Positions 390 to 43,072 of a stretch of 64,000 nucleotides of DNA are shown in pieces. The stretch lies in contig DAIDEE010000042.1 of NCBI GenBank assembly GCA_027308685.1, positions 1-64,000 on the forward strand, given 5' to 3'. This DNA comes from Acidocella sp. GTDB lineage: Bacteria > Pseudomonadota > Alphaproteobacteria > Acetobacterales > Acetobacteraceae. A program made the translations under genes and the position numbers. The notes beneath the pieces are model-generated. The model did no database searches, was not told where the DNA came from, and saw only the letters and a list, made by a program, of their open reading frames with translations. How positions within the stretch are numbered: position 1 is the stretch's first letter; each line of letters begins with the position of its first letter.

Positions 390-800
390 CTACTGTGGGC
401 TTGTAGTCTCATCGAGAGGCGCTACCAACGCAAAGTACGCTGCGCCAACCCGGCGTTTGCCTTGTTGAGTCGAGTCAATAACAGTTACAAATTCATCGCG
501 ACCGATTACACTCAGCAGTAGGCTGATTAGTTTATGTACGCGCTCATTATCTAAACGATAGAAGACTGCCTTACCTCCGCGCCGCGCCGCCAAGGTCCCG
601 GTGCCACGTAATTCAGCCAATTGCTGCGACAGATTCGGCGGCCCAATACTCAATGATGCGTCAATTTGCGCAACATATCTTTCGCCAGACATCAAATAAT
701 TTAGAATCCCAAGCCGCGTACTGTTGGCTAGCACGCACAGCATCGAGACTGTTCGCGCCGTTGTTGCCGTATCGACGCAATGATTGGCGTTACTGGTCAT
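390..800 (-). CDS. ArsR-family winged-helix regulator
   Basis: A 136-residue protein with the ArsR/SmtB fold: helix pair around TVSMLCVLANSTRLGILNYL (residues ~17-36), recognition helix around GPPNLSQQLAELRGTG (~53-68), and a beta-wing RRGGKAVFYRL (~73-83). Cysteines occur only at about residues 8 and 22. The Cys pair 66 residues apart that marks BigR/SqrR persulfide sensors is missing, as is the ELCVCDL metal motif. The signal is therefore unknown. The very AT-rich DNA upstream of its start (about 820-890) is a likely self-operator region. Its target could be the Tat-signal gene downstream or the FadL and sulfurtransferase genes; context does not decide. Confidence 0.85.
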   Translation of the reverse strand: MTSNANHCVDTATTARTVSMLCVLANSTRLGILNYLMSGERYVAQIDASLSIGPPNLSQQLAELRGTGTLAARRGGKAVFYRLDNERVHKLISLLLSVIGRDEFVTVIDSTQQGKRRVGAAYFALVAPLDETTSPQ

Positions 801-1844: not shown

Positions 1845-3119
1845 ATGATTAAAAATATTAAGGCCAATCATGGCTTGTCGTTTGCTGCCATTATTGCAGT
1901 GTTGACGCCTGGCGTTGCTAACGCGACAGATGGTTATTTTGCAGCTGGTTATGGTATGCAGAATATTGGCATGGGCGGGACTGCGTTCGCCGTAACAGGC
2001 GATGGATTATACGGTGCTAATAATCCTGCCAATGGTAGCTTCAGCGACAATGAGTTTGATTTTGGACTAAATTTTTTCGTTCCTGGTCGTACTGCAAGCC
2101 GTACGGGCAATGCGTATGGATTGAATGGTTCGGCCACCAGTCGCAGTACTTTGTTTCCGATACCTGAATTTGGCTACAACAACCATTTGAACGACCAGAT
2201 TACGATCGGTCTGAGTATTTATGGTAACGGCGGTATGGATACTGCTTATCCCGGTGGCCAGTTGAATTGCGGCTTCGGTCCAGCAAATCTGCTTTGTGGG
2301 CAGGGTGGTCTGGGTGTGTCGCTCACGCAGGTTATCGTAGCGCCAACTTTGTCCTACAAGGTTAACGATTCAGTTTCCCTTGGTGTTGCGCCTCAGTTTG
2401 CAGTGCAGCAGTTCTCAGCTTCAGGCTTGCAGGCTTTCACTTCGCCGTCCATCACGCAGTCGCCGAACAATGTGACTGATCGGGGTGATTCCTATTCGTT
2501 TGGCGCAGGATTGCGACTCGGCGGTTACTGGCGTGTCAACTCGCTTCTGGCGTTGGGCATTACCTATCAGACTCAGATTTATTCGACAAAGTTTACCCGG
2601 TACAGCGGCTTGTTTGCTGGTGGTGGTGCGTTCAATATTCCCGCGAATTTTGGCGCCGGTGTGGCACTGCACGTGACGCCAACCTTGTTGTTAGCGGCGG
2701 ATTACGAACGAATATTCTATTCCGGTGTTGCCGCCATAGGCAATTCCAGCGGAAATCATGCACAGCTGGGTGCGAGCAATGGGCCAGGTTTTGGTTGGCA
2801 AGATATTAACGTTTTCAAGATTGGCGTCGCTGATCAAGTATTGCCGAACCTAACACTAAGGGCGGGTTATAATCATAGCGACGACCCAGTGACAGCGAAG
2901 AATGTCACCTTTAATATTTTGGCACCTGGCGTTATTGAAAATCAGGTTGCTATTGGGGCGACGTATAACTTATCACCAACATCGAGTCTTACTGCATCCT
3001 ATACGCACGCTTTCAAGAATACCCTAAGTGGTGCCACAAGCCACTTGCCCGGAGGAGGTATTGATAGCATTAGCCTGACAGAAGATGAGTTGGGCATTTC
3101 ATATCAGAGAAAATTCTGA
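1845..3119 (+). CDS. OmpP1/FadL-family outer membrane transport protein
   Basis: A 424-residue outer membrane beta-barrel. The N-terminus is a Sec signal peptide (cleavage likely after ANA, near residue 27). The mature start, TDGYFAAGYGMQNIGMGGTAFAV, is the FadL/OmpP1 pattern in which the N-terminal hatch plugs the barrel. The rest alternates polar and hydrophobic residues in strands, ends in Phe (YQRKF) as barrel proteins do, and is rich in Gly, Asn and Ser. FadL proteins pass hydrophobic molecules such as fatty acids or aromatics. The substrate here is not visible. The strong ribosome binding site is a run of seven G just upstream. It is monocistronic and closed by a hairpin at 3124-3156. 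The sulfurtransferase and sulfur permeases downstream make uptake of hydrophobic sulfur species a possibility, by inference only. Confidence 0.85.
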   Translation: MIKNIKANHGLSFAAIIAVLTPGVANATDGYFAAGYGMQNIGMGGTAFAVTGDGLYGANNPANGSFSDNEFDFGLNFFVPGRTASRTGNAYGLNGSATSRSTLFPIPEFGYNNHLNDQITIGLSIYGNGGMDTAYPGGQLNCGFGPANLLCGQGGLGVSLTQVIVAPTLSYKVNDSVSLGVAPQFAVQQFSASGLQAFTSPSITQSPNNVTDRGDSYSFGAGLRLGGYWRVNSLLALGITYQTQIYSTKFTRYSGLFAGGGAFNIPANFGAGVALHVTPTLLLAADYERIFYSGVAAIGNSSGNHAQLGASNGPGFGWQDINVFKIGVADQVLPNLTLRAGYNHSDDPVTAKNVTFNILAPGVIENQVAIGATYNLSPTSSLTASYTHAFKNTLSGATSHLPGGGIDSISLTEDELGISYQRKF

Positions 3120-3123
3120 TGAC

Positions 3124-3156
3124 ACGCCGCCCTATATACTGCTTATAGGGCGGCGT
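3124..3156 (+). terminator. Intrinsic terminator after the FadL-like gene
   Basis: A perfect 13-base-pair stem (ACGCCGCCCTATA pairing with TATAGGGCGGCGT) with a 7-base loop starts 5 bases after the stop codon and is followed by the T-rich tail TTGGTTTA. Confidence 0.85.
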
Positions 3157-3363: not shown

Positions 3364-4332
3364 ATGACATTTTCCAATAAAAAAAATCGGCTGAATAATC
3401 TGTTTGCCAAGACCCTCGCTACTGTTTTTGTGGTGGGCGGCTTTGCCGCAAATGCGGGCGCCGCGACCGCACCAACACCGCTCGTGACCCCGGCGTGGCT
3501 AGCGCAACATTTGAACGATAAAAACCTCGTTATTATTGAGGTTTATGATCATGACAACCAGGCTGCTGAATATCAAGCGGCGCATGTTCCGGGCGCGGTG
3601 TTTACGGGTTTTCTTGACGATAAATGGCGGCTGCCGAATGGGGCCATGCCGGCGATGCTGCCGCCTCAAGCGGCCATTGCTAAAGTGATCGGTGACTTTG
3701 GTGTTGGAAATGCCTCCCGCGTCGTACTGGTGCCAGGTGGCGCCAAAAAAGGTGACTTTCCGGCTGTGACGCGAATTTACTGGACCCTCAAAGTGGAAGG
3801 CCAGAACAATGTATCGATTTTGAACGGCGGCGATGTCGCTTGGCAGGCCGATAAATCCAATCCGATTGCAACAGGCACTACTGCTCCGCAACCAGTGGTT
3901 TTCACGCCACATTTTAATTCCAGCATTATTGCAACGCGCGATATGGTTGCGAAAAACCTGACCACTAAGAGCAGTCAGTTGGTTGATGCAAGGCCAGTAC
4001 CGCAATATAACGGTAAGGTTCTCGCGCCAGTTGATGTGCGTGCCGGCACAATTCCGGGCGCTCTGAATCTGCCGTTCTCAACGCTGTTCACCGCCGACCT
4101 CGAAGGAGTGCAAGATCCTGCTAAACTGCAGGTCGCGCTGAATAAAGCGACGATTGACGACAAACAAGCGTCGACGATCGCCTTTTGCAATACGGGACAT
4201 TTGGCTTCGTCCGACTGGTTTGTGCTGCATGAAATTCTTGGCCTTAAGGGGGTCCGTTTGTATGATGGCTCGATGTCGGAATACACGCGTGATGCCTCTT
4301 TGCCAGTCGTAAATGGCGTATCAAACTTCTAA
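3364..4332 (+). CDS. Periplasmic two-domain sulfurtransferase (rhodanese/3-MST type)
   Basis: A 322-residue protein with a Sec signal peptide (hydrophobic segment ~17-30, cleavage after NAGA) and two rhodanese domains. The N-terminal domain (~40-170) lacks a catalytic Cys. The C-terminal domain (~185-310) holds VDARP and the active-site loop CNTGHLAS with Cys at residue 275. That loop differs from the usual CGSGVTA of 3-mercaptopyruvate enzymes, so the sulfur donor may be thiosulfate, a persulfide or something else. AGAGG precedes the ATG. It is the first gene of an operon with two YeeE/YedE permeases and a small NPCAP-repeat protein, which points to capture of periplasmic sulfane sulfur. The sequence around its active site recurs in the truncated copy at 40004-40324. 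Confidence 0.88.
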   Translation: MTFSNKKNRLNNLFAKTLATVFVVGGFAANAGAATAPTPLVTPAWLAQHLNDKNLVIIEVYDHDNQAAEYQAAHVPGAVFTGFLDDKWRLPNGAMPAMLPPQAAIAKVIGDFGVGNASRVVLVPGGAKKGDFPAVTRIYWTLKVEGQNNVSILNGGDVAWQADKSNPIATGTTAPQPVVFTPHFNSSIIATRDMVAKNLTTKSSQLVDARPVPQYNGKVLAPVDVRAGTIPGALNLPFSTLFTADLEGVQDPAKLQVALNKATIDDKQASTIAFCNTGHLASSDWFVLHEILGLKGVRLYDGSMSEYTRDASLPVVNGVSNF

Positions 4333-4347
4333 TCAGGGACCCACATC

Positions 4348-4869
4348 ATGTCTCAACCGCGTGCATTATGGAATCCCTATGTTGCCGGTGTTGCACTTGG
4401 CACCGTGCTGTTTTTGACGTTTATTGCGACCGGTCATGGGTTGGGTGTGACCGGCGCAACCACGTCAATTACGGCGGTAACCACGGCGGCGATCGCTCCC
4501 GGAGCAATTTCACCCCATGACTATCTCGCCGGGTACGTTCGGCGCGGTCTCGATCAATGGATCGTGTGGGAAGTGCTTGGTGTTGCGATAGGCGGTATGG
4601 CTGGTGCGATGCTAGGTCGGCGCTTTGCCAAAAGAATTGACGGGCCGCCGCAGGCTAGCACGCCAGCACGACTCGGCCTTGCCATATCAGGCGGGTTGGT
4701 GTCCGGCCTGGGCGCGCGCTTTGCGCTTGGTTGTACGAGTGGAATGGGGCTTTCCGGTTCAGCGCCTTTGGGGGCCGCCGGATTTTTGTTCTTGATCGGC
4801 TTTTTTGTAGCAGGCGCTGCTGCAGGCTTTATTTTGAAACCACTTTGGCGTCGGAGATCGGTGACATGA
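4348..4869 (+). CDS. YeeE/YedE-family sulfur permease, N-terminal-half type
   Basis: A 173-residue membrane protein with about four hydrophobic segments. It carries the family motif GARFALGCTSGMGLSGSAPLG (~125-145), whose Cys lies in the pore in the TsuA/YeeE thiosulfate transporters. It is a half-size protein. The other half is the next gene, overlapping by four bases (ATGA), as in PmpA/PmpB-type pairs. It probably moves a reduced sulfur species (thiosulfate or sulfide-level sulfur) across the inner membrane for the upstream sulfurtransferase. The substrate is inferred from family and neighbours only. Confidence 0.85.
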   Translation: MSQPRALWNPYVAGVALGTVLFLTFIATGHGLGVTGATTSITAVTTAAIAPGAISPHDYLAGYVRRGLDQWIVWEVLGVAIGGMAGAMLGRRFAKRIDGPPQASTPARLGLAISGGLVSGLGARFALGCTSGMGLSGSAPLGAAGFLFLIGFFVAGAAAGFILKPLWRRRSVT

Positions 4870-5486
4870 TTGCTCCCCTCGATTTTGTTGGTCCTATCTC
4901 AGGTATCCTCCTGGGTGTTGGCTTTGGGTTTGTTCTTGAGAATGCAGGCTTTGGGAATCCAGAAATTCTTACTGGCCAGTTGCGATTCACAAATTGGGCA
5001 GTTTTCCAGACCATGTTTACGGCCATTGTTGTCAGCTCAATATTACTAAATATCGCCGCGTATTTTGGCGTGATCTCGTTTTCAAATATTTTCATTCCCT
5101 CTGTGCTTTTTTGGGGCACTCTGTTGGGTGGGATGTTTGTGGGCATCGGCTTCGCGGTAGGTGGTTATTGCCCCGGAACGTCGGTTGTAGCCCTTATGTC
5201 AGGCCGGCTTGATGCCATCCTTTTCATTGTTGGTATCGGCGTTGGTACGCTGGTTTTTAATGCTATTTATCCAATGATTGGCTCGTGGATTTACACCCAG
5301 ACGGGACCGGATGCCCTGACCGTGCCACAATTACTGCATATGCCCGTATGGGCGGTGATTGCGCTACTGGCCGCTGTATTAATCGCGGTTGGATATTTTG
5401 TCTCGAGGGGTAAACTAACTGCGGGATGTCAAGTTTCTGCTTCAGTCGGAGTACCGTCTGGCGTCGCGGTTCATCACAAACAATAA
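4866..5486 (+). CDS. YeeE/YedE-family sulfur permease, C-terminal-half type
   Basis: A 206-residue polytopic protein starting at the ATG that overlaps the previous stop (ATGA). It has about five hydrophobic segments and the second family motif, GIGFAVGGYCPGTSVVALMSGR, whose Cys matches the pore Cys of YeeE/YedE proteins. A longer upstream frame exists but would run through the partner gene and is not membrane-like, so the overlapping start is preferred. With the preceding gene it should form one heteromeric transporter. A short soluble tail with one further Cys (LTAGCQVSAS) follows the last helix. Confidence 0.87.
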   Translation: MIAPLDFVGPISGILLGVGFGFVLENAGFGNPEILTGQLRFTNWAVFQTMFTAIVVSSILLNIAAYFGVISFSNIFIPSVLFWGTLLGGMFVGIGFAVGGYCPGTSVVALMSGRLDAILFIVGIGVGTLVFNAIYPMIGSWIYTQTGPDALTVPQLLHMPVWAVIALLAAVLIAVGYFVSRGKLTAGCQVSASVGVPSGVAVHHKQ

Positions 5487-5511: not shown

Positions 5512-5784
5512 ATGAAACCTAATAAGCGTATACTATCCCTTTTGGCTGTTACTGCTTCAATGGCTCCTATTATGCCATCAGCCATCGCAGCAAATATGCC
5601 GGGCCAGATAATATTAGCCTCAGCAACAAACCCCTGTGCACCTTCTAACCCTTGTGCTCCGACGAGCGGCCAAAAACCGACAACTGTGCAAAATCCTTGT
5701 GCACCAAGTGGCGCGCCGTCGAAGTCCGGTGGTGGTGCACAGAACCCTTGCGCGCCGAGCACGACACCGTCTAAGTCAAACTAA
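5512..5784 (+). CDS. Small secreted protein with four NPCAP repeats
   Basis: A 90-residue protein with a Sec signal peptide (MKPNKRIL..., hydrophobic core ~8-25, cleavage near AIAA). The mature part has four copies of NPCAP separated by Ser, Thr, Lys and Gly-rich linkers, so its only cysteines are four evenly distributed ones. The start is taken at the ATG at 5512; a TTG three codons earlier is also possible. It is the last gene of the sulfurtransferase-permease operon, 25 bases after the previous stop. No enzymatic fold is visible. Cys-Pro-type repeats could bind metal, carry persulfide sulfur or cross-link to the envelope. I do not recognise a characterised family. Confidence 0.75.
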   Translation: MKPNKRILSLLAVTASMAPIMPSAIAANMPGQIILASATNPCAPSNPCAPTSGQKPTTVQNPCAPSGAPSKSGGGAQNPCAPSTTPSKSN

Positions 5785-5958: not shown

Positions 5959-6927
5959 CTATATTTTACCGTCAAGCTTTTCGTTTTGATTCGTGTGAAA
6001 GCTTGCACTGATATCGGGTAAGTACGTATGGCATTCATCAACGAAAAATTTGCGGATTGAAGATACCGCTGGCATCGGATGACGTTGCCGCAGATGAACA
6101 ATATACCACTGGCGAATGATGGGCAGGCCATCGACGGGTAAAACTATAATACTCTTGTTCGCCAACGCCGCTTCTATTGTGTGGCCGGAAATAAACGCAA
6201 TGCCCAACCCTGCGATTACCGCCTGTTTGATGGTTTCATTGCTTCCAATTTGCATCCTTATTTGCGGTGCAATACCTGAATCAGCAAAAAATCTCTCCAT
6301 TAAAATCCTAGTACCACTACCAGGTTCACGGACGATAAATATTTCCTCAGCCAGCTGGCTCGGCTTAATGAGCTTCATGTTGGCCAATTTGTGGTCTGGA
6401 GGCGCGATAATGACGTGAGGATGATCGCCGATGTTAGTAACTTCGAGATCCAACTCCTCTGGCGGCCGACCAGTGACTGCTAAATCGAGCTTATAGTTTT
6501 GCAGACCTTCGATCATTTCTTCACGATTACCAATGGTAATCTTTAAATCAATTCCAGGATGTGACCGCATAAACGCGCCGAGCAGGCGGGGTACAAAATA
6601 TTTAGCAGTGGTGATAACGCCAACCGAAACACTACCTTGCTTGGTTCCGGCGATCGCAGCGAGCGTCGCATTACAATTCGCAAGAATGGTCTCGATCTGT
6701 TCGATGGCGTGCAAAATCTCGGCGCCAGCGTCCGTAGCCTTAGTTTGAGATCCTGAGCGTTCGACCAATGGTAGTCCTGCATGATCTTGGAGCAATTGCA
6801 TTTGCAACGTCACCGCTGGTGGCGAGACATTTAATTGATTGGCTGCTGCAGTTACGGACCCTGTCCGCACAACGGCGGCCAGAACACGGAGTTGCTTGAG
6901 CGTGACGTTTTTGAGATCTTGTTTCAT
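5959..6927 (-). CDS. cbbR: LysR-family regulator, CbbR-like
   Basis: A 322-residue LysR-type regulator. The N-terminal winged helix-turn-helix spans ~8-67 (TLKQLRVLAAVVRTGSVTAAA, then VSPPAVTLQMQLLQ). The effector domain (~95-300) has CbbR-like stretches such as SVGVITTAKYFVPRLLGAF and the REPGSGTR loop. CbbR proteins bind Calvin-cycle metabolites or NADPH and activate cbb operons. The gene lies downstream of nuoN on the same strand, separated by 183 bases, about 20 kb from the cbb promoter it would control. CbbR is more often divergent from its operon, so this position is unusual. Some nitrogen or sulfur regulators look similar, but the Calvin cycle genes nearby support the name. Confidence 0.85.
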   Translation of the reverse strand: MKQDLKNVTLKQLRVLAAVVRTGSVTAAANQLNVSPPAVTLQMQLLQDHAGLPLVERSGSQTKATDAGAEILHAIEQIETILANCNATLAAIAGTKQGSVSVGVITTAKYFVPRLLGAFMRSHPGIDLKITIGNREEMIEGLQNYKLDLAVTGRPPEELDLEVTNIGDHPHVIIAPPDHKLANMKLIKPSQLAEEIFIVREPGSGTRILMERFFADSGIAPQIRMQIGSNETIKQAVIAGLGIAFISGHTIEAALANKSIIVLPVDGLPIIRQWYIVHLRQRHPMPAVSSIRKFFVDECHTYLPDISASFHTNQNEKLDGKI

Positions 6928-39379: not shown

Positions 39380-39994
39380 TCACAAATTGATATCGTACCG
39401 GCTTAATTTACGGATTAAATTGATCGGTACTTGTGAAGGCATCCGAAGTCGACGATCGTCAAATTTCCTGGGGGGGAATTGCTCCATGCGTGCATCGCGG
39501 GCACGGATAAGGGATTTTATTTCAGTATTAAAAAGAATGAGAATATGTTCGAGCCAATTTGCGACATCTCTCGGAGGCGCATGTGCCAACATCGGATGAT
39601 CAAGATACGACTCCAGAATTCCAGCGGGTTGCCAGACCTCGCCAGTGACCCAGCGATTGGTGGTAAAAAGCCGGATCGGAAAGCCCTTATTACTGACCGA
39701 AACGCCAATTAGGTGTGAAAATTGCTCTGTTGGGGCGGGAACAAAGATATGAAAATGGCCGTGCTCAGCCCGTAACCGCTGTTCGGGTGGATGAGCATGA
39801 TAGTAAAACCTCCAGCCAGACCGCGGGTCAACTGCATCTGGCTGGGGGTAGTGCGCCCATTCAACAAATTCTTGTCCGACTCCTAATAAGCGCGAAGGAG
39901 CATTTTGTCCGACAGCCGCCCAGGCCGCAATTTGAGTCACGATGTAAGTTGCGTCAGGCGCCAAATGTGAGTGCGTTGAGGCCGATGTGTCCAT
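39380..39994 (-). CDS. Conserved hypothetical protein, last gene of the sqr operon
   Basis: A 204-residue soluble protein without signal peptide or membrane helix. It has a mixed alpha/beta look with a His/Trp/Phe-rich middle (WRFYYHAHPP, EHGHFHIFVPAP, TTNRWVTGEVW). This resembles DUF6969-type proteins as I remember them, a weak assignment. It begins nine bases after the truncated sulfurtransferase and so belongs to the sqr-trx cluster. Its His-rich segments could bind metal. The function is unknown. Confidence 0.7.
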   Translation of the reverse strand: MDTSASTHSHLAPDATYIVTQIAAWAAVGQNAPSRLLGVGQEFVEWAHYPQPDAVDPRSGWRFYYHAHPPEQRLRAEHGHFHIFVPAPTEQFSHLIGVSVSNKGFPIRLFTTNRWVTGEVWQPAGILESYLDHPMLAHAPPRDVANWLEHILILFNTEIKSLIRARDARMEQFPPRKFDDRRLRMPSQVPINLIRKLSRYDINL

Positions 39995-40003
39995 TGCCGA
40001 CTC

Positions 40004-40324
40004 TTAGAATGCTGAGGTTCCGATGACCACGGGATGCGCTGGATTTTGAGCCCAGTCGGCCATCGACCCATCGTATAAAGCAACATTTTGATTATTCAAC
40101 ACCTCGTGCATTACAAACCAGCCCCCTGAAGCCAGGTGGCCTGTATTACAGAATGTAAATGCCGGTTTTGTTAATGAGATGCCCGCCTTCGCCAGTGCAG
40201 CCAGCGAAGCGAGCTTATCAAGTACGCCCTCATGGTCAGGTGTCTCCAGTGCATCGGTCGGCAGATTCATGGCTCCCGGAATTGTGCCAACATTATTTGA
40301 AAGCGCAACCGGATTTGAAGCCAA
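40004..40324 (-). CDS. Truncated sulfurtransferase (C-terminal rhodanese part only)
   Basis: A 106-residue frame whose residues ~14-106 align with the last third of the two-domain sulfurtransferase at 3364-4332: GTIPGAMNLP, FCNTGHLASGGWFVMHEVL and ALYDGSMADW. The active-site Cys59 loop CNTGHLAS is identical, but the N-terminal rhodanese domain and the first half of the catalytic domain are missing. The only start is a TTG inside the preceding membrane-protein gene, with which it overlaps by 32 bases in another frame. It may be a translated mini-rhodanese or a remnant of a deletion. Confidence 0.6.
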   Translation of the reverse strand: MASNPVALSNNVGTIPGAMNLPTDALETPDHEGVLDKLASLAALAKAGISLTKPAFTFCNTGHLASGGWFVMHEVLNNQNVALYDGSMADWAQNPAHPVVIGTSAF

Positions 40325-40496
40325 GTTTTTTGAAAATCATCGCAGCAGGGCAGACACCGGTGAAGCCGGTTTGTAGCAAATTCAGGCCAACGAACGCGGT
40401 AAATAAATAGAACCAAGGCGAGATCAGCCAGCCCAGCAACAGGCTGAGCAGGATCATGAAGCCAGCAAACGAAAGTACGGCGTTATCGATTGTCAT
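40293..40496 (-). CDS. Small membrane protein, DUF2892/YgaP-like
   Basis: A 67-residue protein with two hydrophobic helices (~8-25 and ~27-47) followed by GLNLLQTGFTGVCPAAMIFKKLG, the hallmark of DUF2892 proteins. In YgaP the same helices anchor a rhodanese domain in the membrane. Here a separate rhodanese fragment follows directly, suggesting a split version of that arrangement. It is 10 bases downstream of the thioredoxin gene. Confidence 0.85.
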   Translation of the reverse strand: MTIDNAVLSFAGFMILLSLLLGWLISPWFYLFTAFVGLNLLQTGFTGVCPAAMIFKKLGFKSGCAFK

Positions 40497-40506
40497 TTTA
40501 GGTCCT

Positions 40507-40944
40507 TTAAGTGGTGGTTTGGCAGCGCACCCATTGCAGAATTTGCTGCGCTGTCATCGCGCCGACCTTTTGAGATTTAAGGGCACCGCCTGAGAACAGC
40601 AGCAAGGTGGGGATAGAGCGCACGGCATATTTGGTCATGGAGGCAGGCGCCGTGTCGGCATTCAGCTTTAACAACCGCATCCGCGGCTCTAACTGCGCCG
40701 CCGCTTGCTCAAAATGCGGTGCCATTGAGTTACAGGGGCCGCACCAGGGCGCCCAAATGTCCACCAGCAGGTCAATGCCGTCATTTTGAATATGACGCGC
40801 CAGAGCATTTTCATTCACTGACAGCGGATGCGCCGTGAAGAGCGGCTTATGGCAAGCGCCGCAGATGGGCACTTGCGCAAGCCGCTCGGCCGGCACACGG
40901 TTTATGCTGGAACATGCAGGGCAAACCAGGGTTATTGCGGCCAT
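40507..40944 (-). CDS. trxC: Thioredoxin 2 (TrxC-like)
   Basis: A 145-residue thioredoxin with an N-terminal zinc ribbon (CPACSS and CGACHKPL, ~9-40) and a thioredoxin domain whose active site is WAPWCGPCNSMAPHF. TrxC proteins reduce disulfides and persulfides. In this operon it may reduce persulfides made by the sulfide:quinone oxidoreductase, from which it is separated by 22 bases. Confidence 0.92.
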   Translation of the reverse strand: MAAITLVCPACSSINRVPAERLAQVPICGACHKPLFTAHPLSVNENALARHIQNDGIDLLVDIWAPWCGPCNSMAPHFEQAAAQLEPRMRLLKLNADTAPASMTKYAVRSIPTLLLFSGGALKSQKVGAMTAQQILQWVRCQTTT

Positions 40945-40966
40945 GGTAAGATAACTTCTACCCCTT

Positions 40967-42247
40967 TTATGGAACCCGGTCTAATAATTTCGGGATTTTC
41001 AACTGCTTTAACAGGTAGCGTTCATAGAACGGTTCGCTCTTGCCGACCTTGATCTTGCGCAAGAAATATTTCTCGAACCCAACTTTCGCTAGATGCACCC
41101 ATTTGCCGCTGCCAGACCAGTTGACGTTACGGGGCGGAATTTGTGGCTGGGCGACGAATGCCACGCCGCCATCGCCAAAGTCAGCCAGACAGATGGCGTT
41201 CCAGCTTGGTTTGATGTCCGGTTGCTGGCCCCGCAGCAAGCCACCTATGTTGTGGGCGGTAGCGGTGACCATGGATTCAATCATGAAGCCGGTTTTGGGT
41301 ACGCCAACTGGCACCGGGGTTTTGCCAGTGGGCGGAATGGCAACGCAAACCCCGATGGAAAATACATTCGGGAAGGCAGTGTTGCGCTGATAGGCATCGG
41401 CCAGAATGAAGCCGCGCGGGTTGGTCAGCCCCTCAATACCGTACACCGCCGGTACGCCGCGGAATGGTGGCATCATCATGCTGTATGAGAAATCCAGCGT
41501 ATGCGTGGTTTTCAGGCTGGCGTCCTCGTTCAGTTCCTCGACCATCATCTGCCCTGGCGTGACTTTCTTAACCCGCGCGTTGGTGACCCACTTGATGTGG
41601 CGGTTGCGTAGTTCGCTCTCCAACAAACTCTTGGTGTCGCCTACGCCATCCAGCCCGAGGTGGCCGATATAGGGTTCAGGGGTCACAAAGGTCATCGGCA
41701 CCTTGTTCCGGATTTTGCGCTTACGCAGTTCGGTGTCCAGAATCAGGGCAAATTCATAGGCTGGACCGAAGCAAGAAACCCCCTGCACAGCACCGACCAC
41801 AATGGGGCCGGGGTTTTTGCAAAATTCTTCAAATGCCATGAAGGCTTGCTCGGCATGGCCGGTTTCGCAGATCGATTGGGTATGGGCATCCGGGCCCAGG
41901 CCTGAAATTTCGTCAAAGGCCAGTTCAGGGCCGGTGGCGATGACCAGATAGTCGTAGGAAACAGTCTCACCGCTGGTCAGTGTGATCTGGTTCTGTCCAG
42001 GCATCACCCGGGCTGCACCCTCGGTAACGAACTTAATTTTTTTCTTCGCCATAATTTTGGTGAGATCCACTTCAATATCCTTCCGTTCCCGCCAGCCGAT
42101 GGCGACCCAAGGATTTGAAGGATAAAATTGATATGAAGGACCTTTTCCAATCACGGTAATCCGGTCTTCCGGCCTCAACTGCTCAGACATTTCGTAAGCC
42201 ATCAGCGTTCCGCCGAGGCCAGACCCCAAAACAACGATCTCAGACAT
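40967..42247 (-). CDS. sqr: Sulfide:quinone oxidoreductase, type I
   Basis: A 426-residue membrane-associated flavoprotein that oxidises sulfide to sulfane sulfur and reduces quinone. The FAD-binding GSGLGGTLMAYEM is at the N-terminus and DYLVIATGPEL follows. The three redox Cys are at 127 (SICETGHAEQ), 159 (GVSCFGPAYEF) and 353 (NAICLADFGD), matching Cys128, Cys160 and Cys356 of the Acidithiobacillus ferrooxidans enzyme as I recall it. A C-terminal amphipathic region (WVHLAKVGFEKYFLRKIKVG) should bind the membrane. It is the first gene of an operon with trxC and rhodanese-like genes and divergent from a persulfide-type regulator. Confidence 0.93.
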   Translation of the reverse strand: MSEIVVLGSGLGGTLMAYEMSEQLRPEDRITVIGKGPSYQFYPSNPWVAIGWRERKDIEVDLTKIMAKKKIKFVTEGAARVMPGQNQITLTSGETVSYDYLVIATGPELAFDEISGLGPDAHTQSICETGHAEQAFMAFEEFCKNPGPIVVGAVQGVSCFGPAYEFALILDTELRKRKIRNKVPMTFVTPEPYIGHLGLDGVGDTKSLLESELRNRHIKWVTNARVKKVTPGQMMVEELNEDASLKTTHTLDFSYSMMMPPFRGVPAVYGIEGLTNPRGFILADAYQRNTAFPNVFSIGVCVAIPPTGKTPVPVGVPKTGFMIESMVTATAHNIGGLLRGQQPDIKPSWNAICLADFGDGGVAFVAQPQIPPRNVNWSGSGKWVHLAKVGFEKYFLRKIKVGKSEPFYERYLLKQLKIPKLLDRVP

Positions 42248-42281
42248 AGATTAACCCCCATTCAATTTTTGCTGTTGCACA

Positions 42282-42303
42282 TATATTCGTTTATTCGTAT
42301 ATA
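42282..42303. promoter_or_regulatory. Dyad in the sqr/regulator divergent promoter, candidate operator
   Basis: TATATNCG and CGNATATA are arranged as an inverted repeat around a six-base AT spacer, in a 63-base gap between sqr and the ArsR gene. A 10-base perfect palindrome CGTATATACG (42296-42305) overlaps its right arm. The site ends eight bases before the regulator ATG, fit for autorepression and control of sqr. Confidence 0.5.
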
Positions 42304-42310
42304 CGCAACT

Positions 42311-42697
42311 ATGAAAATTAACCCTGAGCTCATGCATAGCGCTGCCGGTCAGGCGAGCGAGGTTTTGAAGTCTCTGGCGAACCCGCACCGCTTGGTGATC
42401 CTTTGTCAGTTGATCAATGGCGAGCGCTCAGTGGGGGAACTGGCAGCGTTCCTGGAACTACGCAGCTCAACTGTCTCGCAGCATTTGTCGTTGTTACGGC
42501 GTGATGGGCTGGTCTCCGCCAGGCGTGATGGGCAAACGATCTGGTACGGTATCGCCAGTGTAGCTGCCCAGAAAATTTTAGAAACCTTGTTTACTATATA
42601 CTGTTCACCCACCGAAGCAGGTTCAGAGTCAATTGCCTTGATTTGTGCGAGCGATATGCCTTCGCAACCTCGTTCTTCTGTTAAATTGAAAGGTTAA
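42311..42697 (+). CDS. ArsR-family persulfide-type regulator, BigR/SqrR-like
   Basis: A 128-residue winged-helix repressor: helix pair SEVLKSLANPHRLVILCQL, recognition helix LRSSTVSQHLSLLRRDGLV, wing RRDGQTIWYGI. Cys32 (VILCQL) and Cys98 (TIYCSP) lie 66 residues apart, the same spacing as Cys42/Cys108 of BigR and Cys41/Cys107 of SqrR. In those proteins persulfide links the pair by a tetrasulfide bridge and releases DNA. The ATG at 42311 is used; no strong ribosome binding site precedes it. It is divergent from sqr and heads an operon with a rhodanese and an RND pump. Confidence 0.88.
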   Translation: MKINPELMHSAAGQASEVLKSLANPHRLVILCQLINGERSVGELAAFLELRSSTVSQHLSLLRRDGLVSARRDGQTIWYGIASVAAQKILETLFTIYCSPTEAGSESIALICASDMPSQPRSSVKLKG

Positions 42698-42700
42698 GCT

Positions 42701-43072
42701 ATGTTTTTCGGATCGAAAAAATCAGAGATTAAAAATTACACGCCGGCGGAATTGCACGACGCACTTGCAAAACATGCTGTGACACTGGTTGACGTTAGGG
42801 AGCCAGGTGAATTTGCCGGGGCTCGAATTCATGGAGCCGTGCTGTTTCCGCTTTCCAGCTTCGACCCCGCTGCTCTGCCACGCGACCCGGCGCGGCCGAT
42901 TGTTCTGCAATGTGGCTCCGGCAAGCGGTCGCTTACCGCGGCTGAAATGTGCCGCAAGGCAGGTGTTGAAGTTGCTGGGCATCTGGCTGGTGGCATCGGT
43001 GCCTGGGCGCACGCCGGGCTGCCGGTAACGAGCATGGATCCTGCAACGGGCAAAATTATCGACCGCGCCTGA
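42701..43072 (+). CDS. Single-domain rhodanese
   Basis: A 123-residue cytoplasmic rhodanese. VTLVDVREPGEFAGARIHGAVLFPL is the CH2A-type region, and the active loop is CGSGKRS with the catalytic Cys at about 68. It has no signal peptide. Only three bases separate it from the upstream regulator. It likely carries or transfers sulfane sulfur released by sulfide oxidation. Confidence 0.92.
   Translation: MFFGSKKSEIKNYTPAELHDALAKHAVTLVDVREPGEFAGARIHGAVLFPLSSFDPAALPRDPARPIVLQCGSGKRSLTAAEMCRKAGVEVAGHLAGGIGAWAHAGLPVTSMDPATGKIIDRA

Follow-up and report, generated by a model that had tools for sequence, protein, structure and literature searches.

Here we show that the NPCAP-repeat miniprotein encoded in a sulfur operon of an Acidocella species belongs to a gene module that spans two bacterial classes: true orthologues (secreted proteins whose (N/S)PCxP motifs number three or four) adjoin the gene for a YeeE2-type half permease in 12 of the 12 genomes in which they were detected, four of Acidocella and eight from the family of genome G599. 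The new elements are this cross-class module, fusions of the NPC segment to sulfurtransferase-like domains, and a link to the domain family DUF6969. Judged from gene content, a role in sulfur metabolism is supported where the true orthologues are concerned, but this support does not extend to the whole NPC class. We favour the specific reading that the miniprotein shuttles sulfane sulfur through the periplasm on several arms, from a sulfurtransferase to a YeeE importer; in our estimation this has slightly less than an even chance of being correct.

Sulfur import requires YeeE-like SoxT proteins, whereas the hand-over of sulfur to them by a periplasmic carrier is treated as no more than a possibility (PMC11582611). 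The miniprotein, being small and easy to express and having conserved partners, is a candidate carrier with which this hand-over can be put to the test, and the link to secreted NPC-repeat proteins provides a handle on the DUF6969 family. DUF6969, the closest partner of the miniprotein, was invisible to the first-pass annotation because the operon in the window (the whole stretch of 64,000 nucleotides analysed here) lacks it.

The miniprotein gene and its operon

The open reading frame assigned to the miniprotein was borne out (Table 1), and a Sec-like N-terminus, read by eye, fits the claim of export. The product has exactly four Cys (42, 48, 63, and 80), all inside NPCAP motifs as had been claimed; their description as regularly spaced does not hold, the actual spacings being 6, 15, and 17 residues. 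Chance origin of the motifs is ruled out by cross-class conservation and by shuffling of the 63-residue mature part, which yielded one NPCAP motif in 387 of 200,000 shuffles and more than one in none. The four motifs are written in four different codon sets, which rules out a fresh tandem duplication of DNA as their origin and indicates that the repeat is held at the protein level.

Against Pfam and NCBIfam the miniprotein matched no family at E up to 1, and membership of SoxY was rejected on this ground. Membership of TusA/TsuB was likewise rejected, the motif being PCxP rather than CPxP and the N-terminus signal-like, and the Cys spacing differs from the clustered C-x-C or C-x2-C of metallothionein-like proteins. 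A plasmid search with the miniprotein gave no match, and a search of open-licence literature for NPC-repeat motif strings gave nothing relevant among the matches listed.

Table 1. Position and strand of the features discussed, in coordinates of the window.
Feature	Position	Strand	Remarks
ArsR-family regulator, weakly BigR-like	390..800	-	BigR model 56.2 bits, cut-off 155
FadL/OMPP1-like outer-membrane protein	1845..3119	+	Pfam; also near miniprotein loci of three sister Acidocella
Two-domain rhodanese/mercaptopyruvate-sulfurtransferase-like protein, signal-like N-terminus	3364..4332	+	PRK11493 129.6 bits, below cut-off 250
YeeE1-type half permease (PF04143)	4348..4869	+	Conserved GCTSG Cys
YeeE2-type half permease (Sulf_transp PF04143)	4866..5486	+	Conserved GGYCPGT Cys
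NPCAP miniprotein	5512..5784	+	90 aa, secreted-type, four NPCAP motifs, stop TAA
CbbR-like LysR regulator	5959..6927	-	345.2 bits, cut-off 450; convergent with miniprotein gene
DUF6969 gene, second locus	39380..39994	-	Partner family of miniprotein
C-terminal remnant of rhodanese-like protein, adjoins DUF6969	40004..40324	-	Longer 316-aa homologue precedes DUF6969 in G010

The rhodanese, YeeE1, YeeE2, and NPCAP genes follow one another on the same strand with gaps of 15, -4, and 25 bp. The first three products are all over the Pfam cut-off, the YeeE halves scoring 57.5 and 53.5 bits against Sulf_transp (cut-off 27). Of the earlier claim of cotranscription the compact same-strand run stands, while the shared transcript itself is predicted from these gaps only. 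A terminator-like hairpin of 13 pairs (3124-3156), detected by consensus scan 3' of the FadL-like gene, suggests that the latter probably has its own transcript and lies outside that of the rhodanese-YeeE-NPCAP genes. The interval between the miniprotein and CbbR-like genes measures 174 bp and is without DUF6969, which in the Acidocella MAG loci L031 and L032 lies between these two genes; the NPC/DUF6969 pair is broken in the window, DUF6969 being 34 kb from the miniprotein.

Pfam matches in the window include RuBisCO, phosphoribulokinase, FBPase, and [NiFe] hydrogenase, and complex I-like genes can be read from the sequence. From the Calvin-cycle genes, the [NiFe] hydrogenase, the complex I-like genes, and the CbbR-like neighbour we infer that the host is an autotroph, which would suit a dissimilatory sulfur module. 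A second, sulfur-like patch (39380-43072) adjoins the [NiFe] hydrogenase genes and holds DUF6969, the rhodanese remnant, thioredoxin 2, and a rhodanese, together with a type-III-SQR-like flavoprotein and a BigR-like ArsR gene, both below cut-off.

Conservation of the module

A YeeE2 relative is present in 4 of 38 Acidocella genomes, and the same four carry an adjoining miniprotein (37 of the 38 were searched for the latter). Three motifs occur in the miniprotein of G020 and four in the other three, and DUF6969 follows the miniprotein in three of the four loci, the window being the exception. A miniprotein alignment gave 107 pattern matches against named genomes, of which two were confirmed, both in Acidocella with this operon. 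In a search of 61 genomes, 30 had a match at E up to 0.1; the best five of these loci were examined (L001 and L003-L006, E up to 1.5e-4) and the rest were taken as chance. In a separate search, two of the five non-own matches, G072 and G083, were without any NPC repeat. In G020 (L062:5836-7727) the DUF6969 stop and the start of a FadL-like gene share 4 bp, so the module can include an outer-membrane channel.

At the level of the phylum, a profile of seven YeeE2 proteins matched 7 of 349 genomes, its own included; of the other six, G599 and G685 carry the miniprotein. Among 120 genomes of the family of G599, which belongs to a second class, YeeE2 was found in eight, and in all eight it is followed downstream by a secreted protein with four (N/S)PCxP motifs and then by DUF6969 (Pfam profile, 8/8), giving the order YeeE1-YeeE2-miniprotein-DUF6969; the eight come from two genera, seven from the first and a single genome from the second, and are not independent events. 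A miniprotein profile applied independently of YeeE produced eight strong matches in the 120 genomes, which are the same eight that carry YeeE2. Six weak matches (E 0.0017-0.0099) were discarded, five having no ORF with three PC pairs and one being an unrelated ORF, and the YeeE motif is absent from all six loci. DUF6969 itself was sought in 85 genomes of the family, five of the eight among them, and occurs in 5 of the 85, namely those five.

Rhodanese genes were recognised in the vicinity for three of these genomes (G599, G685, and G837), the other five being covered for 1.5 kb on each side. The order in G599 is rhodanese, YeeE1, YeeE2, miniprotein, DUF6969, two-domain rhodanese, and an ArsR gene (BigR model 102 bits, cut-off 155), with soxC 2.5 kb beyond the latter (604 bits, cut-off 420), and soxY is found 8-11 kb from YeeE2 in five of the seven genomes of this genus. 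Across the seven miniproteins of the genus the four Cys are invariant and their codons vary; a crude pN/pS for the mature protein is ~0.09, with synonymous differences near saturation. Motif identity is better kept than the linkers between motifs among miniprotein orthologues, and the mature proteins contain three or four Cys, zero C-x2-C, and zero His.

YeeE2 relatives and fusions of the NPC segment

Directly 3' of YeeE2 in G175, G405, and G270, the three best of 16 class-level YeeE2 matches outside Acidocella, the NPC segment is fused to a BLH_phosphatase (DUF442)-type domain (48.1, 37.5, and 46.0 bits, respectively; cut-off 26.1). The fused domain is also over the cut-off for the phosphatase family PF22741, which in G405 is the better match (58.3 vs 37.5 bits); these phosphatase matches count against the carrier reading. 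In G270 it scores 66.9 against the sulfurtransferase family TIGR01244 (NCBIfam), below the cut-off of 85.85. The active-site loop of the fused domain is C-x4-R, spanning six residues; that of tyrosine phosphatases is C-x5-R. The loop of the DUF442 rhodanese is CRTGTR (PMC8533005), equal in length to C-x4-R, and DUF442 has been described as a sulfurtransferase in other bacteria (PMC5823870, PMC6441731, PMC8533005).

NPC-repeat ORFs were not found within ~1.5 kb of YeeE2 at 13 of the 16 class-level matches, nor near YeeE2 at four of the six phylum-level matches, so that such importers generally need no such carrier. The YeeE2 relatives of G639 and G642 each carry a fused rhodanese, and no miniprotein was detected at these loci. 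In a YeeE2 tree of 27 of 32 rows (L038, L040, L205, L206, and L207 were dropped, being without the cutting motif), the 15 NPC-linked rows and G639 fall on one side of a 100/100 branch and the 11 other rows on the opposite side; the dropped row L205 (G642) is a near relative without miniprotein, and the bootstrap is not quite settled. All 15 NPC-linked loci that were scanned have both Cys motifs of the importer, GCTSG and GGYCPGT. Among 30 hand-chosen genomes, SoxY was found in 11 of the 15 that carry the module or an NPC-DUF442 fusion vs 2 of the 15 that carry neither; those of the first group in which it was not found are G000 (the window's own), G010 (83% complete), G020, and G175.

A candidate sulfane-sulfur carrier

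In the reading that we favour, the miniprotein would be exported to the periplasm and be largely unfolded there, each of its four Pro-framed Cys serving as a short arm that would take up sulfane sulfur (as Cys-SSH) from the secreted sulfurtransferase. The arms would then offer this sulfur to YeeE1/YeeE2, if persulfide is indeed formed and transfer runs in this direction, and the two importer Cys would relay it to the cytoplasm, there to feed lithotrophic sulfur oxidation or to serve in signalling. DUF6969 would be auxiliary, either in maturation or folding (as a chaperone) of the peptide or by acting on imported sulfur. Zero-valent sulfur is imported by the paired short permease YedE1E2, one Cys in each of its halves being required (PMC10812762). 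With a secreted sulfurtransferase nearby or fused, and with an importer, carriage of sulfane sulfur between the two is what an exported chain of Pro-framed Cys would most simply do. Weighing against it are the absence of YeeE2 from 34 of 38 Acidocella genomes, by which the module is dispensable, the failure to find SoxY in 4 of the 15 module or fusion genomes, and the fact that a carrier alone leaves DUF6969 unexplained.

Known systems offer partial likenesses. SoxYZ is a periplasmic carrier that holds sulfur on the Cys of a mobile arm (PMC5336275), and its hand-over to the YeeE-type SoxT is discussed as conceivable (PMC11582611). The miniprotein is proposed to resemble it as a periplasmic carrier with a Cys arm, but has several such arms and no family match, whereas SoxY has one arm on a folded heterodimer. 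TusA/TsuB (YeeD) proteins share with the miniprotein small size, a Pro-framed Cys, which in TsuB lies in CPxP (PMC11073785), and a YeeE partner; they are, however, cytoplasmic and folded, whereas the miniprotein has repeated PCxP in an exported, low-complexity chain. The window's YeeE1 and YeeE2 are split, half-size, and furnished with one conserved Cys each, like YedE1E2/PmpAB (PMC10812762, PMC11582611), but the YeeE2 group of the window lies across the 100/100 branch and has a miniprotein partner. The likeness to Blh/DUF442 consists in the fused domain being over the BLH_phosphatase cut-off in G175, G405, and G270; unlike Blh, the NPC fusions are secreted-type, no dioxygenase domain was matched, and phosphatase families also match.

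NPC repeats and DUF6969 beyond the sulfur operon

DUF6969 occurs in 90 of 385 genomes of the class. We surveyed 80 loci (L097-L176), corresponding to the 81 best of 103 DUF6969 places, with flanks of up to ~4 kb; the 22 lowest-scoring places were left out, and some of the 80 loci end at contig ends. As controls, 20 of these genomes also supplied a 20-kb stretch each (646.5 kb of loci vs 400 kb). An ORF with at least three NPC was found at 37 of the 80 loci vs 0 of the 20 controls, and a relaxed motif gave 36 of 80 vs 0 of 20. Neighbours were counted by BLAST with named representatives, at the level of the domain only. A P460-like domain, with matches that straddle the cut-off, was present at 25 of 80 loci and at 19 of the 37 with NPC repeats, 19 ORFs being fused to the repeats. 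FGE-sulfatase-like proteins were found at 28 of 80 (20/37), a rhodanese homologue at 8 of 80 (5/37, within ~4 kb), and cytochrome c, which is not enriched, at 25 of 80 (9/37); YeeE and DUF442 homologues were found at none of the 80. DUF2336 and TRAP-like genes also occur in some of these neighbourhoods, a conserved setting of which the open-licence literature yielded no account.

From these counts NPC repeats emerge, as predicted proteins, as a broad exported module of which most members examined lie away from obvious sulfur genes. They belong to a wider NPC/DUF6969 association in which the sulfur operon forms a single branch. The first-pass annotation had named homologues lying mostly away from sulfur genes as the outcome that would tell against its carrier proposal, and this is the situation of the wider NPC-repeat class. 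The proposal keeps its footing in the true orthologues beside YeeE2 and in the DUF442-type fusions of three lineages, and loses it in the wider class, where 32 of 37 NPC loci are without rhodanese, 80 of 80 loci are without YeeE, and 19 ORFs are fused to P460-like domains; judging by these counts, sulfur carriage may not be the ancestral chemistry of the Cys. The wider association may concern modified or metal-binding peptides.

Along these lines, the NPC segment could be a substrate peptide whose Cys are modified by DUF6969 before export, the mature peptide then having a metal or redox role, and the sulfur operon being one setting among others. We regard this as unlikely, though deserving of serious attention. 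It is favoured by the enrichment of NPC-repeat ORFs over controls, by the FGE-sulfatase-like genes, and by stretches of G302 and Skermanella mucosa in which NPC repeats adjoin DUF6969 and YeeE is absent by tblastn; the S. mucosa pair comprises WP_202685272.1 (NPC repeats) and WP_202685273.1 (DUF6969). The five invariant His of DUF6969 (22 sequences, no invariant Cys) also count in its favour; the N-terminus of DUF6969 is without a signal-like start. Against this reading, DUF6969 has no known activity and no solved relative, a PDB profile search giving chance-level matches only (best E 0.84), and no usable model, the predicted structure having a pLDDT of 48 and not being used for a fold search; no description of DUF6969/PF22308 was found in open-licence literature. 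NPC repeats are moreover absent near 43 of the 80 loci and near 10 of 10 further Acidocella loci (10 of 20 DUF6969 places, three of the other ten being operon copies). Conversely, the NPC proteins of L063, L064, and L066 have neither DUF6969 nor YeeE within 12-14 kb, and the three DUF442 fusions are without DUF6969 within 14 kb.

Bufferins are modified Cys-rich exported peptides, to which the miniprotein bears a likeness in being small, secreted, Cys-rich, and beside a gene for a His-rich protein; it differs in that DUF6969 matched no other Pfam family and that modification of its Cys is putative. A broader possibility, to which we give little credence, is that DUF6969 is a hitherto unrecognised peptide-modifying enzyme family with (N/S)PC repeats as substrate, producing exported activated-Cys chains in Pseudomonadota, one branch of which would have become a sulfane-sulfur shuttle to YeeE that replaces SoxYZ where the latter is missing.

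A periplasmic thiol or soft-metal buffer against metal-rich acid water or reactive sulfur, for which the Cys-rich, secreted nature of the miniprotein and its Acidocella host (a genus of acid-mine habit) could be adduced, is improbable. Extended NPC proteins at other loci do carry CNPC (C-x2-C) stretches as a buffer might, but the mature miniproteins contain no more than three or four Cys, with neither C-x2-C nor His; none of the conserved neighbours was recognised as a metal transporter, and the YeeE2 partnership is constant. A role as periplasmic tether or scaffold that joins the sulfurtransferase to the YeeE pair, with Cys for disulfides or anchoring instead of sulfur carriage, is highly improbable: the DUF442-type fusion does make the NPC segment an N-terminal extension of a presumed sulfurtransferase, but the motifs are kept better than the linkers, which is more than a spacer needs.

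Further loci may be recorded. The NPC miniproteins at L063:7337-7573 and L064:7492-7734, from two lineages, follow a pyridine-nucleotide-disulfide oxidoreductase. On a plasmid of Ciceribacter thiooxidans (L200, ~6510-6870), a secreted (A/N)PC-repeat ORF, at which the PLSDB table has no feature, stands directly before a DUF6969 homologue. The target motif of the formylglycine-generating enzyme is C-x-P-x-R; in the G831 protein (L211:1124-1441) three of the four SPCxP motifs also read C-x-P-x-R, and FGE-like genes are common near DUF6969 elsewhere.
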